DNA from: Anaerolineae bacterium
GTDB taxonomy: Bacteria; Chloroflexota; Anaerolineae; Aggregatilineales; J027
Direction of reading: 5' to 3'
DNA length: 64,000 nt
Assembly (NCBI GenBank): GCA_021463865.1
Contig: JAJTXY010000016.1
Location: 26,796 to 90,795, forward strand
The translations under genes and the position numbers were made by a program. Below, piece by piece: positions 25,601 to 33,680 of the stretch (position 1 is the stretch's first letter; every line of letters starts with the position of its first letter). A model generated the notes under the pieces. That model searched no databases. It was not told the origin of the DNA and saw nothing but the letters and a program-made list of their open reading frames with translations.

Positions 25601-26050
25601 TTATTCAAAAATCCAGCGTTCGGTGTCGCGCGTCCAGTTGATCAATTCGGCATCGCTAAAGAACAACGCCACTTCACGGGCAGCAGCGGCTTGACCATCC
25701 GAGCCATGTACCAGATTGCGGCCAATTTCCATGCCCAGATCGCCACGAATGGTCCCGGGTGCTGCTTCGACTGGGTTGGTTTTGCCAATCGTGCCACGTG
25801 CCGCTTCAATGGCGTTTTTGCCTTCCAGCGCAATCACGACCACCGGGCCACTGATAATGTAGCTGACGAGGCTTTCATAAAATTTCTTGCCCACATGCTC
25901 AGCATAATGCTTTTCAGCTAATTCACGGCTAATTTGAATAAATTTCATCCCGGCAATACGCAGACCACGTGCCTCGAAGCGGCGGATAATTTCCCCGGCT
26001 AGACCGCGCTGTACGGCATCGGGTTTGACGATAATCAGTGTACGTTCCAA
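25601..26050 (-). CDS. ndk: Nucleoside diphosphate kinase
   Basis: MERTLIIVKPDAVQRGLAGEIIRRFE; catalytic-His motif GRNLVHGSDGQAAAAREVALFF. Confidence 0.97.
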   Translation of the reverse strand: MERTLIIVKPDAVQRGLAGEIIRRFEARGLRIAGMKFIQISRELAEKHYAEHVGKKFYESLVSYIISGPVVVIALEGKNAIEAARGTIGKTNPVEAAPGTIRGDLGMEIGRNLVHGSDGQAAAAREVALFFSDAELINWTRDTERWIFE

Positions 26051-26234: not shown

Positions 26235-28868
26235 TTAGAGTTGGTTCAGAGCACCACGATAGGTGTCGAGTGCTTCCTGTAAACGGCCCTGTCGCATATA
26301 GGTATCGCCCAACAGACGGCGCACCTTTGGGTTTTGCGGCTGGCGGGTGGAGAGTCGGGACAGATCGTCGGCAACCACTTCGAGCGCCGCCGAGGATTCG
26401 ACCAACGTCTCGTAATGGTCAAGACTCGCCCCTACGTTCCCAGCTTTCTCCAATTCACGGGCCAAATTCAGCCGTGTAAGGTGATCGCTCGGATTTTGTT
26501 CCAGCGTGGCTTGGTATTGTGCAAACCCAGCCGGAACGAGGGCGGGCGACGATGGCGGTGGCACAGGTTGGGCCACTTGGCGTGAACTGGCAGCCGGGGC
26601 AACCACAGGCGTAGGTGATGGCGGCGGTGCCATTGGCGGCACGCTGGGCATGGGTGGAGGTGTCATCACCACAGGCGGTTGTTGATAGACAGGCTGGGCG
26701 GGTGCGACATAGACAGGCGCAGGGGGTGTTTCGACCACAGGTGCTTGATACCATGACGGCAGACCACCTTCTTGGGCAGCCGGGAGATGTTCTTCTACCT
26801 CAGCCGAGGCTTCGGATGGGGTCTGAGCAAGGAACGCGGGTTCGGGCTGCGACGAGGTGGCTTCCGGCGTCAACTGTGAATAGTCAAATGCTTCGGCTTC
26901 AGACGGGGCATTTTCCGCCACAAAACTCAGCGGATCCATGACGGGTTCGCTTAACCAATCCGGGGTGGCAACTTCTGAAATCGCTTCTGGTTCGACTACT
27001 TGCGAGCCAATCAACCATTCCGGCAAATCACTGTCGGTGGGAACGACTTGACTGCTCATTTCTTGCAGCCAGTCGGGTAAATCAGTCGGCTCAGACGCGA
27101 TAATTTCGGTTTCAATGGGTACTTCAAACATGCTGATGTCGAATTCCGGTAGGGCTTCGGTTTGAACCATTTCTGGCATGATCTCCTCGACTTTGGAGAC
27201 TGCCTCGGCGTACCAATCTGGTTCGGCGGGTGGGGTTAGACTTTCATGCTGTAAGGCATATTCTTCATCGAGTGCAGCCGCCCAATCATCCCCACTTTGA
27301 GCATAACCCGCAATAAAATCCGAAGCCGACAGAATCTCATCTTGCATTGGTGCGAAACTGGTGGTGTCTTCGAGGGTAAATTCGGGTAGTTCGATTTCGG
27401 GCAATTCTTGCACAATCGGGCTTTCCGACAGCCAATCTGGTAAATCGGTTGGGGCTGGCGGCGGCAAAATCTCATCAATCAGGGCCGGGAAAGTATCTTC
27501 TGTCACCGGAGCCGCTTCGAGGTCGGAAGGCATTTGAGCAGCCAACCAGTCTGGGATTTGGCCGGGGGCAATTTCGTCACTCTCGACGGGATGAGTGGCC
27601 TCAAATTCGTCATTCAAAGGGGTAAGGGCGGCTAAAGATTCAGCCTTCTTCATCAGCCATGCCAATTCAGCTTCGGGGGTAATCGTGCCGTGTGCCTGCG
27701 CTTCGGCGATTTGCTCATCCGTTAACCCCTCAATGGAAGTGATCATGTGCGGGGTGGTCGGGGTAGGTTCGGGCGCGGCTTCATAACTGAGATCAAAGCC
27801 GGGGATGTCATCCGCAGCCATGCTGCTTAGGAAGTCGGGTACCCCTGCGCTCTGATCGCCTGCCAAGTCGCTCAACCACGACAAGGACGAAGTATCCTCG
27901 CTGAGTTCAGGCGCGGATTCGGGCAGTGGCGTGGATGGCACGGGTGGTTGATAGGATTCGGTACTGGCAAATGACTGTCCAGAAGTGGTCTCAAAGGGCG
28001 AATACGGGACATAACCCGGTTCGTCAATGACCACGCTGTTGGGATCAATTTCAGGGATTTCATAGTCGGCTGCCGTCATAAACTCATTGGGGTCTGCTCC
28101 CTGACGCGCCGCCAAACTTTCTAGCCATGCCATCGGGTCAACATCTACCGGAATTTCGCCATCTTGGGGCACCCATGCTGCGGCTGGTGTTTCAAAACTG
28201 AACTCCGGCTGTTCGGCGGGAACTTCGTAGGGTTGCGTTGCCGATGTTTCCAATGTGGCTGGTTCTTCAACTGGATGACTTGGCCCAGCGGCAGCAGATA
28301 ATGGGCGGCTGAATTTTTCGGAGGGGACATAGCCGGGTTCATCAATGACCACGCTGTTGGGGTCAATTTCGGGAATTTCATAGTTAGCCGCCGTGGTGAA
28401 TTCGTTGGGATTCGCTCCTTGACGCGCGGCGAGACTTTCCAACCACGCCATCGGATCCATGCCACCGAGGGGATCATTGGCATCAAGGGCTGCTGAAGCC
28501 ACTGGTTCGATGGGGGGTGGTTCTTGGAATGAATAGTCCATCATCGTCGGCTGTTCGGCATAGCTGTAGTCGTAAGCTGGAGCCTCTACAGGTAGTGTAG
28601 GTGAGACCTCGATAGGCTCGGTAGCCTGCGGGGGTTCTTCGACGGGACGGCTTGGGCCAGCGGCGGCGGATAATGGACGGCTGAATTTTTCGGAGGGGAC
28701 ATAGCCGGGTTCATCAATGACCACGCTGTTGGGGTCAATTTCGGGCACCGACATATCCGCTGTGGTCATAAATTCTTGCGGATTTGCGCCCTGTCGTGCC
28801 GCAAGGCTCTCCAACCAACGCATTTGCTCTTCAAGTGTCATGTTCTCAAAATCTGGCATGTCGCCCAT
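26235..28868 (-). CDS. Large acidic protein with internal repeats, DWL-type motifs and C-terminal TPR
   Basis: Three copies of WLESLAARQGA(N/D)P..EIDPNSVVIDEPGYVP; multiple PDWL motifs; TPR-like C-terminus (NPSDHLTRLNLARELEKAGNVGASLDHYETLV, VRRLLGDTYMRQGRLQEALDTYRGAL). Confidence 0.75.
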   Translation of the reverse strand: MGDMPDFENMTLEEQMRWLESLAARQGANPQEFMTTADMSVPEIDPNSVVIDEPGYVPSEKFSRPLSAAAGPSRPVEEPPQATEPIEVSPTLPVEAPAYDYSYAEQPTMMDYSFQEPPPIEPVASAALDANDPLGGMDPMAWLESLAARQGANPNEFTTAANYEIPEIDPNSVVIDEPGYVPSEKFSRPLSAAAGPSHPVEEPATLETSATQPYEVPAEQPEFSFETPAAAWVPQDGEIPVDVDPMAWLESLAARQGADPNEFMTAADYEIPEIDPNSVVIDEPGYVPYSPFETTSGQSFASTESYQPPVPSTPLPESAPELSEDTSSLSWLSDLAGDQSAGVPDFLSSMAADDIPGFDLSYEAAPEPTPTTPHMITSIEGLTDEQIAEAQAHGTITPEAELAWLMKKAESLAALTPLNDEFEATHPVESDEIAPGQIPDWLAAQMPSDLEAAPVTEDTFPALIDEILPPPAPTDLPDWLSESPIVQELPEIELPEFTLEDTTSFAPMQDEILSASDFIAGYAQSGDDWAAALDEEYALQHESLTPPAEPDWYAEAVSKVEEIMPEMVQTEALPEFDISMFEVPIETEIIASEPTDLPDWLQEMSSQVVPTDSDLPEWLIGSQVVEPEAISEVATPDWLSEPVMDPLSFVAENAPSEAEAFDYSQLTPEATSSQPEPAFLAQTPSEASAEVEEHLPAAQEGGLPSWYQAPVVETPPAPVYVAPAQPVYQQPPVVMTPPPMPSVPPMAPPPSPTPVVAPAASSRQVAQPVPPPSSPALVPAGFAQYQATLEQNPSDHLTRLNLARELEKAGNVGASLDHYETLVESSAALEVVADDLSRLSTRQPQNPKVRRLLGDTYMRQGRLQEALDTYRGALNQL

Positions 28869-28937
28869 GACGGACTATCCTCCTTATGGTTGGCTGGTGT
28901 AATGAGAGGCCAACACGAGATACAAAAAACACAAAAA

Positions 28938-31900
28938 TTATTTAAACCAATCGGGCGGCGTGTCATCGTCCCCACCAAAATTTGACTCATCAAAGTCTTC
29001 TGACTTATTAAAGTCTATTGAGGGTGCAGCCCCTTTTTGTCGGCGTAACCAAGGTGGGTCATGATCAAAATCAAATGATGCGGGTGCAGCCACCGGAATT
29101 GCCTCTGGTTCCACCTCAACGGTGGGTTCTCGGCGTTTCCCAAACAAGCGCCGACCCCGTTTTTGTTTTGGTTTGGCTGGCTCATCCCATTGCATTGGGA
29201 ACGCATCATCAAATTCCATATTAGTATCCGGCAAATCGCGTTTGGTGGCAACTGGTGTCACTTCGGCCTTATCGAAGCCAAAATCCGCCTCGTCTGGAAA
29301 TTCTTCGGGCAGCGTGGTTGGCACCGGTGACGAAGGACGGGTAGCGGCTTCTACTTCTTCGGGTTTCAGTTCACGCAGTTTAAAACCCGTTAGTTGATCG
29401 AGTTCAGAAATCATGGCCTCGGTTTGGTCGGTGATGCGATTTTGATCCGCGCTTGTAATCGAGGCAAGGAATACATCAATATTGTCTACCGGCTTGCGCT
29501 CCTCGGATTCTTTGGCGGCGGCGCGGGCAGGACGCTCATCAAAATCCACTGCCATTTGAATATCGGAGGTGTCAAGCCGAATATCATCACTCAGCCAATC
29601 GGGGGCAGCCGCGCTTTCAACTTCTGATTCTTCCAGCAGAAGATCATCTTGCCACTCTGCGGCCATGCCTGCTTCGGTTGATTCTTCAAGCTCTTGTTCG
29701 TCCAGATCAAGCCAATCTGTACGTTCCTCAGCAGTAACCGACATATCTTGGAAAAGGTCATCAAAGCCTGCAACAGGCGTTTCAGGTTCTTCGTCGATTT
29801 CCACACCAGCCAGCCAATCAGGCAATGCTTCGGCGGGTTCGGCCATTGGGATGGGGGCACTCGGTTCGGATTTACCAATGGAAGACAACCAATCGGCGGC
29901 GCTTTCGGGTTCGGCGATCTCCCCCTCGACATCCTCTAACCAGCCCGTATGCGGTTCGCCGATTTCGGAGAGATCGCCAAATAGGGCCTCCATGTCGGAT
30001 TTGGCAGTGACTTGAGGCTCTATTGCTTCATTGTCATCCAAATCGCCTCTTAGCCAATCGGGGATCTGCTTGGCTTGCGGGATGGCTTCTGGTGGTTCAG
30101 CTTGTCCAAATGAAGAGAGCCAATCAGAGGCACTTTCCGGTTCGGCGGTGCCTTCTTCCAAATCATCTAGCCAACCCGTGCGCGGCGCTTCAATTTCGGA
30201 GAGGTCGTCAAAGAGACTACCAAATTCGGGTTGTGGGGTGGCAGTAGTCTGTGGGATGGCTTCTGGTGGTTCAGCTTGTCCAAATGAAGAGAGCCAATCA
30301 GAGGCACTTTCCGGCTTGGCGGTGCCTTCTTCCAAATCATCTAGCCAACCCGTGCGCGGCGCTTCAATTTCAGACAGGTCATCGAAAAGACTGCCAAATT
30401 CGGGTTGTGGCGTGTCCTGCGGGATGGCCTGTGGTGGTTCAATCTGTCCAAATGAAGAGAGCCAATCGGAGGCACTTTCCGGTTTGGCGGTGTCTTCTTC
30501 CAAGTCATCCAACCAACCTGTGCTTGGGGTACTAATGTCGGAAAGGTCATCAAAGGCGCTTTCGAAGCTCTGGCTACTGGGCGCACCCACCTCACCAAAG
30601 TCATCCCCTAACAGTCGGCTCAGGTCATCATCGGAAACTTCCGTTCCCAGTGTATTTGACAGGGCCGATGGCGTGGAGAGCAGCCAATCGTCGCTGATTT
30701 CTTCACTTAAATCTACGGTTGACCCGGCGGTGGGTGATTCAAAATCCGTAAGCCACCCCGTACTGGGTTTATCAACCGCCGCGAGGTCGTCCACCGGAGC
30801 GCCGAACATCTTGTCAAAGTCGGCATCCGAGACATCCACTTTGGCAGATGGAGCTTCCAGCGAGGACGCCCAATCATCGGCGGGGACACTATCTAGTTCT
30901 GTTAGCCACCCAGTGCTTGGTTCGCCAATGGCTGAAAAATCATCCACCGAGGTGCTGAACATCGCATCTAATTCACTGTCGGTAACTTCTGGGGCAACCG
31001 ATTGGATCGGCTCAATGTCCCGCATCCATTCAGGAACTTCTTCATTCTCATCAACAGCGAGGAAGTCGGGCATATCGGGCACAGCGGCCTGCTGAACATC
31101 GTCTAACCAAGCTGTTCCCGGAATGAGATCATCGCTGAATAGGTCGGTGAATTCTTCATCCGAAACGTCTTGGGCAATGGAGGAAGTCTGTGGTGGAACA
31201 TTTAGCCATGCAGCAAGATCATCTACAGGTGTTTGTTCTGAAACGGTTTCGAGTGGTTCAGCCGAGGCAGGGAGTTCTGGCATGGCTTCATTCTCAAGCA
31301 CATTCCAGTCCACTTCGTCTAAACTAGACGCTCGACCCGGTGAGGCAAACACATCACTATCGGCATCCTGTCGCCACGGCAAATCACCTGTGACCCCCAA
31401 ATGACTTGGGGTAGAGGTGATGGGTTGTTGAGGAAGTTGGCTATCGAAAAGGACAGCGAATTCATCAATCGAACCCGTTTCGGCGGATGATTCGGGAGTA
31501 CCCTGTCGCCATGGAAGGTCACCTGTTACCCCCAAACGTTTTTCGGCGGCGGGGGGCGGTGTGACTAATTCATCTTCAAACAGCGAGGCGAATTCTTCAG
31601 CGGATTCTTGCTCGACTTTTTCGAGGGTCAGTGAAGGGGTATCCGGTGCTACGGCATCTGTCAGCCAATCAATTTCGTCGCCAGCAGCGGGTGATTCTTC
31701 ATCCAATTGGAAAATTGGCGGGGTGGCCGACACTGCCGTGCTTTCTGTTTCCCCCATTAGCCAATCATCAGTTTCAAAAGAAAAAGTAGGTTCTTGCTTT
31801 GCAGCGATTTCGGGCAGCATGTCGGTGCTGGCTATTGGGGCGGCTGAATGCGCGGGTACATCGGTTAGCCAATCGGGTGTTTCATCCTCAAATAGGGTTG

Positions 31901-33680
31901 TAAACTCGGCGTGATCCTCACCCTCAGATAAATCCGGGGCATCGGACAGCCAGCTTGGGGTTACGGGAGGTGTGGGGGCAGAGGTTTCGATAGCGCCAAA
32001 ATCCTCAAACAGCGTTTCTTCGTCCCACAGTGTCTGGCTAGGTTCGTTTGCTGCGGGTGTCGGGGATTCCTCGACCAACCAATCGGGCAGCGCTTCCTCA
32101 GCTTCTTCAGGTTTGCGGCCACCCATTGCCAACAATGCCGCCACTTCTTCAGCGGATGGTGGACGAGCCGCGGCCCGTAATTGTTCTAATTCCTCATCGG
32201 GATTCTCGCCAAAACTGAATTCTTCGACATCCCCGAAAATGGATGGTGGTTCATTGTCGGAGGCAATTTGAAGTTCTTCGCTTGACCAACCGGGTAGTTC
32301 TTCATCTTCCGCCTGTTGGATTTCTGCCAACAATCCTGTGAAACCTGTAGATTTACGCGGCGGCGGTGCTGCTTCAGTGGTCGTGAAATCTGGTATATCA
32401 TCCAACCAACTGGGGGTTGGTGCTACCACTTCTGGCTTTTGACTGGGCGGTTCTGCCATCCAATCCGGCAAAGGCGCTTCGGCAGTGGTATTCGTGAATA
32501 GGTCGCTGACGTTGACGGATGGGGCGGTTTCGGCGACATCGGCGAACCAATCGGGTAATTCATCTTCACCCGAAGCGGCAGGGGCTGGCGCTGGGGTCAG
32601 GCTAGCTTTGGCCGGACTCGGCTGACTCAATGAGCTTGCCATTTCGTTAAACCAGTCATCCGGGGCAGGCAAATCGGCGGTCTTGGGTTTGCCGCCAAAA
32701 TCCGCACCGGGGGTAAACCAATCCGGTAAATCATCGGCAGGGGTCGGACCCACCGCCTCACTCATCCAGTCGGGCATCTCTTGGGCGGTACTGCGTCCGG
32801 GACTGCGCGTCGGGGCAATGCTTTCGGGTGTATTGAATACATCGGTGATTTGGCTGATCCAATCCGGGGCAGGGCCAGCCACCGAGGTCGCCCCATCGGC
32901 TGTCCATTTGAGACGGGATAATACAAACGCCCCTTCAGGCAAGGTGGCCTGATTTTCGCTACTATAAATTAAGCGCAGGCTTTCATATGGCGCAAGGGCT
33001 TCGACTTTTTCTAAGAAAGGTTTGGCGTCGTCTGGACGGCGAGTTTCGATCCACAGTTTTGCCATCAATAAATTTAATGGCAAACAATCGGGCAGCACCC
33101 GCAGCACTTCCAGCGCCAGTTCACCTGCTTCCAGCATATGTCCGGCATCCCAGAGGGCATTGGCAAGGCGGACACGCAAATCTAAGCGATTGGGTTGTTC
33201 CACTAGGCTCTGCCGCAGTTCCGTAATGGCCTGCTCATACATCCCACTGCTGAGATACTGTTGAGCAAGTGCGGCGCGGGTCAATTGGATTTTGCGAGGA
33301 CTGGCTTCATCCCGGCGTTTATAGAGACGCTTGAGTTCATTAATGATGACGTTATTGTTCGGCATCTGTTCATTGGCACGTTCCATATGCCAGATCGCCT
33401 GATTCAACTGCTGCTGATTTTCATAGATGGAACTCATGCCGACATGGGCCACAAAATCGTTGGGGTCGGCGCTTAAAAGGCGCGGAAAAACTTGGGCGGC
33501 CTCTTCATGGCGGGCTTTTTCTAATAAAGCCTTGCCGAGTAAACGATATGTTTCCACATTTTTGGGGTAATGCTGCAAAATGTGGCGACAATGCCCGATG
33601 ACTTCCTCTAGGGCTTCACGTTGAAGTAAGAGGTCAAGTTCATCTAGGTAGGCACGGAGAGTTGTTGTAGACATGAGCAA
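28938..33680 (-). CDS. Very large acidic protein with N-terminal TPR and many DWL/GWL-type motifs
   Basis: N-terminal TPR repeats (HILQHYPKNVETYRLLGKALLEKARHEEAAQVFPRLLSADPND); repeated FGSLFDDLSEIEAPRTGWLDDLEEGTAxPESASDWLSSFGQAEPPEAIPQ. Confidence 0.8.
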   Translation of the reverse strand: MLMSTTTLRAYLDELDLLLQREALEEVIGHCRHILQHYPKNVETYRLLGKALLEKARHEEAAQVFPRLLSADPNDFVAHVGMSSIYENQQQLNQAIWHMERANEQMPNNNVIINELKRLYKRRDEASPRKIQLTRAALAQQYLSSGMYEQAITELRQSLVEQPNRLDLRVRLANALWDAGHMLEAGELALEVLRVLPDCLPLNLLMAKLWIETRRPDDAKPFLEKVEALAPYESLRLIYSSENQATLPEGAFVLSRLKWTADGATSVAGPAPDWISQITDVFNTPESIAPTRSPGRSTAQEMPDWMSEAVGPTPADDLPDWFTPGADFGGKPKTADLPAPDDWFNEMASSLSQPSPAKASLTPAPAPAASGEDELPDWFADVAETAPSVNVSDLFTNTTAEAPLPDWMAEPPSQKPEVVAPTPSWLDDIPDFTTTEAAPPPRKSTGFTGLLAEIQQAEDEELPGWSSEELQIASDNEPPSIFGDVEEFSFGENPDEELEQLRAAARPPSAEEVAALLAMGGRKPEEAEEALPDWLVEESPTPAANEPSQTLWDEETLFEDFGAIETSAPTPPVTPSWLSDAPDLSEGEDHAEFTTLFEDETPDWLTDVPAHSAAPIASTDMLPEIAAKQEPTFSFETDDWLMGETESTAVSATPPIFQLDEESPAAGDEIDWLTDAVAPDTPSLTLEKVEQESAEEFASLFEDELVTPPPAAEKRLGVTGDLPWRQGTPESSAETGSIDEFAVLFDSQLPQQPITSTPSHLGVTGDLPWRQDADSDVFASPGRASSLDEVDWNVLENEAMPELPASAEPLETVSEQTPVDDLAAWLNVPPQTSSIAQDVSDEEFTDLFSDDLIPGTAWLDDVQQAAVPDMPDFLAVDENEEVPEWMRDIEPIQSVAPEVTDSELDAMFSTSVDDFSAIGEPSTGWLTELDSVPADDWASSLEAPSAKVDVSDADFDKMFGAPVDDLAAVDKPSTGWLTDFESPTAGSTVDLSEEISDDWLLSTPSALSNTLGTEVSDDDLSRLLGDDFGEVGAPSSQSFESAFDDLSDISTPSTGWLDDLEEDTAKPESASDWLSSFGQIEPPQAIPQDTPQPEFGSLFDDLSEIEAPRTGWLDDLEEGTAKPESASDWLSSFGQAEPPEAIPQTTATPQPEFGSLFDDLSEIEAPRTGWLDDLEEGTAEPESASDWLSSFGQAEPPEAIPQAKQIPDWLRGDLDDNEAIEPQVTAKSDMEALFGDLSEIGEPHTGWLEDVEGEIAEPESAADWLSSIGKSEPSAPIPMAEPAEALPDWLAGVEIDEEPETPVAGFDDLFQDMSVTAEERTDWLDLDEQELEESTEAGMAAEWQDDLLLEESEVESAAAPDWLSDDIRLDTSDIQMAVDFDERPARAAAKESEERKPVDNIDVFLASITSADQNRITDQTEAMISELDQLTGFKLRELKPEEVEAATRPSSPVPTTLPEEFPDEADFGFDKAEVTPVATKRDLPDTNMEFDDAFPMQWDEPAKPKQKRGRRLFGKRREPTVEVEPEAIPVAAPASFDFDHDPPWLRRQKGAAPSIDFNKSEDFDESNFGGDDDTPPDWFK
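30081..30530 (-). repeat. In-frame coding tandem repeat, about 2.6 units of 168-174 bp
   Basis: GATGGC(TTCT/CTGT)GGTGGTTCA..TGTCCAAATGAAGAGAGCCAATC begins at 30081, 30255 and 30423; high DNA identity between units. Confidence 0.8.

Follow-up and report, generated by a model that had tools for sequence, protein, structure and literature searches.

Two adjacent genes, here called A and B, were analyzed in a window of 64,000 nucleotides (the whole stretch of DNA studied, on contig JAJTXY010000016.1) from the genome of an Anaerolineae bacterium (G000). Judged from their sequences and domain order, they are two halves of one protein that is fused in most of the other lineages sampled. Both halves carry arrays of a tryptophan motif in long acidic linkers, and the same motif was found in an unrelated protein of this genome, named C. 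We tentatively interpret the pair as the split form of a multivalent docking-peptide scaffold, whose own TPRs would be the leading receptor candidate, with C as a membrane tether and the ndk product as a partner.

Genes A and B and Their Neighborhood

The two neighboring genes of 877 and 1580 amino acids named in the original prediction were both present as open reading frames at their expected positions and on the expected strand. They were adjacent and co-oriented, with a gap of 69 bp between them, and each was single copy in the genome; ndk began 184 bp downstream of A. The features of the locus were the following:

28938..33680, minus strand: gene B, 1580 aa as listed, N-terminal TPR and long acidic array tail
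32955..33674, minus strand: TPR superhelix of B, residues 3-242, seven helical hairpins (AF2 pLDDT mostly >90; Pfam TPR_19; homologue alignment)
32832..32873, minus strand: first motif of B, PDWISQITDVF (W274), straight after the TPR, with a helix predicted at 274-283 with low confidence
28938..32897, minus strand: acidic tail of B, predicted disordered, with about 31 W-hydrophobic motifs
30076..30554, minus strand: 174-bp tandem duplication, 2.8 copies, with TGWLDDL/SDWLSSF pairs
26235..28868, minus strand: gene A, 877 aa, array head and C-terminal TPR
28695..28841, minus strand: repeat unit 1 of A, xWLESLAARQGA...EIDPxSVVIDEPGYVPS, helix 12-25 in AF2
28308..28469, minus strand: repeat unit 2 of A
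27999..28151, minus strand: repeat unit 3 of A
26934..27560, minus strand: PDWL-type motif array of A (W441, 479, 552, 600, 618, 638), four Trp invariant across 12 homologues
26238..26534, minus strand: C-terminal TPR of A, residues 779-877, matching the C-terminus of the fused form
25601..26050, minus strand: ndk, nucleoside diphosphate kinase, located next downstream of A, or of the fused BA gene, at most of the loci examined

The start of B very likely lies two codons inside the listed frame, at an in-frame ATG at 33674, where the homologues begin. An antisense open reading frame opposite B in the repeat region (30031-31095, plus strand, 354 aa) was taken as spurious and is probably a by-product of the composition of B. 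In families f4 and f8, a gene of the histone deacetylase family (PF00850) was located directly upstream of B (L089:6709-7731 and L097:6211-7236).

Folded TPR Ends

The expectation of a TPR at opposite ends, N-terminal in B and C-terminal in A, was borne out by Pfam and AF2. Residues 1-242 of B were modeled as a confident TPR superhelix and matched PF14559 (TPR_19) with an E-value of 1e-15 (58 bits against a cut-off of 25). The C-terminal TPR of A reached 32.3 bits with PF13432 (TPR_16), just below the cut-off of 32.7, and was modeled by AF2 as six helices with a pLDDT of about 93 (mostly >90 over the domain). Consecutive 34-residue helix-turn-helix units, as in the TPR superfamily, were thus found in both proteins.

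None of the three proteins A, B, and C reached the cut-off of any NCBIfam model. The named NCBIfam TPR families (PrsT, MamA, PilW, and others) were all rejected for B, the best scores being 60.8 against 312.2 for PrsT and 40.9 against 200 for MamA, and a PDB profile search together with Foldseek returned generic TPR matches only. The B TPR was also retained in genomes without arrays (G050, G187, and G064), and its retention where the arrays had been lost suggested some array-independent role for this domain.

Acidic Linkers and Enrichment of the Tryptophan Motif

The long regions outside the TPRs had been described as acidic and probably disordered, and charge-hydropathy and AF2 agreed on this for the linker parts examined. 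The net charge was -132 in A and -253 in B, and both linkers were classed as disordered by the charge-hydropathy plot. In the AF2 models, pLDDT was <50 for 569 of the 877 residues of A and for residues 265-330 of B, the end of the modeled part of this protein. Helices were predicted at several motif sites, with low confidence in the case of B.

When motif numbers and spacing were compared with shuffled sequence, the motifs were far above a baseline of 5000 composition shuffles in both linkers. The B tail contained 25 occurrences of [DG]W[LMF] (0.90 expected, shuffle maximum 5), 11 of PDW (0.49 expected), and six of TGWL (0.01 expected); the A head contained 10 occurrences of WL (0.89 expected) and four of PDW[LMF] (0.02 expected). 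The tryptophans of B were also more evenly spaced than random (CV 0.62 vs. 0.95), with only four of 5000 random sets as even, and those of A were weakly so (233 of 5000). Recent DNA duplication was rejected as the main source of motifs, as it was restricted to one array, the 174-bp repeat, which holds a minority of them.

The motif was written as [DE]xPDW(L/M/F)x(D/E)(hydrophobic), the final position being (L/M/I) in a fuller form, and appears to start a short capped amphipathic helix. A common logo was obtained from B, A, and C, in which the W is preceded by D (-1), P (-2), and an acidic residue (-4) and followed by L/M/F (+1), a second acidic residue (+3), and a hydrophobic one (+4). Among the Trp sites of the B tail, D was present at -1 in 53%, L/M/F at +1 in 73%, and L/M/I/F at +4 in about 38%, and a literal WxxxF was found in only part of them. 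Additionally, A has three copies (27999-28841) of another conserved unit, in which WLESLAARQGA precedes EIDPxSVVIDEPGYVPS, and more copies were observed in the relatives L037 and L038.

Conservation of the Motif Positions

The conservation of the W motifs in homologues was confirmed, with motif positions kept better than the surrounding tail. In the comparison with the relative G001, the motif Trp of B was kept at 30 of 31 sites, the tail outside the motifs being 63% identical, and every motif Trp of A was kept. The +1, -1, and +3 positions of the B motifs were kept better than amino-acid-matched tail positions (p = 0.0004, 0.008, and 0.009, respectively), which was not the case for -2 and +4; in A, the same kind of comparison gave p values of 0.02-0.03 for the offsets -2, +2, and +4. 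The codons of the kept motif residues were spelled differently in 57% of cases in B and 53% in A, which indicated selection at the protein level. Furthermore, W18, W248, W331, W404, W441, W479, W600, W638, and W706 of A were invariant in 12 homologues, for which the column identity averaged 41%, and P272 and W274 of B were invariant in 17 homologue rows, W274 being nearly invariant in 32.

These data bear on the reading in which the arrays would simply result from the composition of fast-evolving linkers and from the expansion of repeats within them, with no docking role. The 174-bp tandem duplication and the wide variation of linker length among homologues would fit such an origin. Nevertheless, the shuffles, the amino-acid-matched conservation, and the changed codon spelling led us to reject composition or slippage as the source, and the recurrence of the motif in the unrelated protein C and its concordant loss, described below, also speak against this reading, which we hold to be very improbable.

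The W-hydrophobic helices might also self-associate or lie on a membrane, forming a sticky acidic mesh or a condensate instead of docking on a receptor. Many evenly spaced, sticker-like motifs on an acidic disordered chain would suit this behavior, and some of the WxxxF/Y helices of PEX5 also touch membranes (PMC8086558). However, the preferences at -2, -1, +1, and +3 and the one-to-one conservation of the W exceed those of generic stickers, and the strongly negative net charges of A and B would disfavor binding to acidic membranes. We therefore consider self-association or membrane binding improbable as the main role of the motifs.

Split and Fused Forms of the Proposed Scaffold

B was detected in 36 and A in 35 of the 38 good genomes of the order to which this bacterium belongs, usually in the gene order B-A-ndk, and the B profile matched 131 of the 267 good genomes of the phylum. 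At 15 of the 20 loci sampled outside the order, a single open reading frame was found with the B domain N-terminal and the A domain C-terminal, mostly beside ndk; the other five loci showed B only, some of them from a contig end or a short protein. Inside the order, two fused loci (L092 and L099) were found in family f3.

The presence of a TPR-acidic linker-TPR single gene at these 15 loci identified A and B as split halves, and the simplest reading would be that a single TPR-linker-TPR gene came first and was divided in two in this order. Hence, the view of A and B as two genes sharing a design understated their relation. The phylogenetic distribution of the pair, which had been suggested as a check, extended over much of Chloroflexota, usually split in the order and mostly fused at the loci sampled outside it.

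A Third Carrier of the Motif

Clusters of PDW[L/F] codons were found in genome G000 in A, B, and C only:

L109:4788-8081 (contig C56 of G000), plus strand: protein C, with a PDW[L/F] codon cluster, an array head, and a hydrophobic C-terminal part

Protein C had no Pfam or NCBIfam match; the hydrophobic stretches of its C-terminal part were read as transmembrane by eye, and it is presumably a membrane protein. Its gene lies between genes for small membrane-like proteins and one for a MutL/GlmL-like ATPase, in an apparent operon that also encodes a DUF6754 protein and a protein of 366 aa. The MutL/GlmL-like gene matched PF13941 (MutL) and the NCBIfam GlmL models, and its 107 bits against the GlmL cut-off of 475 indicated that it is not a member of the named GlmL equivalog. 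Its likeness to the GlmL/MutL accessory family consists in these model matches, and it differs in being part of a membrane array operon. C was found in 25 of the 26 good genomes of the order and in 20 of the 27 genomes of a mixed phylum-wide set, and its head was motif-enriched in most homologues.

To compare like with like, 34 genomes were scored in the same way for arrays in BA and in C. Arrays were present in both in 25 genomes (that in C of G037 being weak), in neither in four (G050, G042, G187, and G064), in C only in five, and in BA only in none. A strict rule of one shared motif in BA and C was rejected, being broken by the five genomes with C-only arrays; these were Chloroflexia-like, and their fused linker lacked the W array and had PFSLxDLGLSxEEI-type repeats instead. 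The scaffold linker of the Chloroflexia (Herpetosiphon, Chloroflexus) has other repeats and C retains the W array; the wider Chloroflexia-like set includes Herpetosiphon aurantiacus (G161; PMC3368417) and Chloroflexus aurantiacus (G169; PMC3150298).

The C profile had no match in genome G261, in which a pattern scan detected a second PDWM cluster. This cluster belonged to a zinc-ribbon protein (L253:5599-7473) in the position of C beside the MutL-like gene, and both the BA linker and the zinc-ribbon protein had M at +1. Covariation of motif flavor between BA and C was obtained with p = 0.0005 over 22 de-duplicated genomes and p = 0.009 without G261, values uncorrected for phylogeny or composition.

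All of the genomes with C arrays among the 34 scored had the B TPR. In two good-quality genomes of the order, G038 and G042, only weak and partial TPR matches for B were obtained with a sensitive profile, and C was absent or motif-free. Two fragmented genomes, G029 (80% complete) and G039 (89%), had C arrays and no clear B, likely owing to assembly gaps.

Candidate Receptors of the Motif

The repeated tryptophan motifs had been proposed as docking peptides for some partner or for the TPR of the sister protein. The first part of this proposal gained support from the enrichment, the position-specific conservation, and the distribution over the phylum; as to the second part, AF2 docked no motif with confidence. 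When the B TPR was modeled with the first motifs, these had a pLDDT <50 and no confident docking was obtained, and in the model of A the motifs were not docked on the A TPR. Since the alignments were shallow in both cases, this non-docking is weak evidence. Moreover, since the motif also occurs in the unrelated membrane protein C, there may be partners besides the sister TPR.

The presence of the B TPR in the scored genomes with C arrays, together with the lack of a C array in G038 and G042, made the TPRs the leading receptor candidate. The B TPR as a proven receptor was rejected, because it persists without arrays and its docking was absent from the AF2 models. A different possibility, doubtful but to be taken seriously, is that the A/B and C arrays dock on a third receptor, for which the MutL-like ATPase or some other conserved protein of the cytosol might serve. 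The TPRs would then bind other clients such as NDK, and the scaffold and C would be parallel clients of the third receptor. The persistence of C arrays in Chloroflexia despite the other repeats of the scaffold linker would agree with a third receptor, as would the location of both C and its stand-in of G261 beside MutL and the AF2 models without TPR docking. No candidate for this receptor was found, however, and among the components tested, only the scaffold TPR was present in every scored genome with arrays.

The scaffold with its own TPRs as receptor, which we tentatively prefer, would work as follows. It would be a cytoplasmic protein with a TPR superhelix at its N-terminus, a further TPR at its C-terminus, and a long acidic disordered linker between them, here distributed over two chains. 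The linker arrays of one docking peptide would offer many weak, interchangeable sites for one receptor groove, and this receptor may be the TPR grooves of the scaffold itself, acting in trans. C, with the same array, would compete for the same receptor or be cross-linked through it and would thereby tether the scaffold to the membrane, and the ndk product may be a co-transcribed client or partner.

Relation to Known Systems

No description of the A/B/C system was found in the papers searched. The closest likenesses of design were those to PEX5 and to the recognition of W peptides by the kinesin light chain TPR, and by the features tested A/B would be filed as a member of neither. In PEX5, several helical motifs of the form W-x-x-x-F/Y lie in a long disordered region and bind the membrane-associated PEX14, and the TPR is C-terminal (PMC8086558). 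A/B resemble it in combining disorder with TPRs and in that some B motifs are of the WxxxF type (WLSSF, WLTDF); they differ in having TPRs at both ends, a far longer array, and a hydrophobic residue directly after the W. PEX5 TPRs ranked near the top of the folds matched by B, as generic TPRs (TM 0.29-0.34 by query length), and we know of no PEX14 homologue in bacteria. The resemblance is one of design and not of homology.

The concave groove of the kinesin light chain TPR binds acid-flanked disordered W peptides; the affinity is in the low micromolar range, and there is competition within the molecule (PMC6214655). These peptides have an acid directly after the W (EWD), whereas the A/B motifs mostly have L/M/F at +1, and acids on both sides of the W were not the pattern of the B tail. 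Scaffolds of the CsoS2 and EPYC1 type are disordered repeat proteins with multivalent low-affinity docking and without TPR ends. Disordered repeats are what they have in common with A/B, which differ by their TPR ends, and to our knowledge there is no sequence relation between them.

If the motifs dock as proposed, they would constitute a eukaryotic-style short-linear-motif docking network in bacteria, with tens of motif copies per protein, in two unrelated protein families and across much of the phylum, including the cultured species H. aurantiacus and C. aurantiacus. The split and fused forms, together with the replacement of repeats, make motif-receptor coevolution directly testable. A still wider reading, which we think rather unlikely, is that an undescribed peptide-code system organizes the cytoplasm in much of Chloroflexota; it would comprise the TPR-bracketed scaffold and a membrane array protein with its MutL-like ATPase, sharing a W helix peptide, with the scaffold peptide replaced in Chloroflexia.

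Additionally, PFSLxDLGLSxEEIAxL repeats replaced the W motifs in the scaffold linkers of the Chloroflexia-like loci L190, L198, and L188, where matches to the alternative motif numbered as many as about 40. A helical segment of A, GLTDEQIAEAQAHGTITPEAELAWLMKKAE (residues 380-414, about 27627-27731, pLDDT about 87), resembled the LGLSxEEIA repeat of Chloroflexia.
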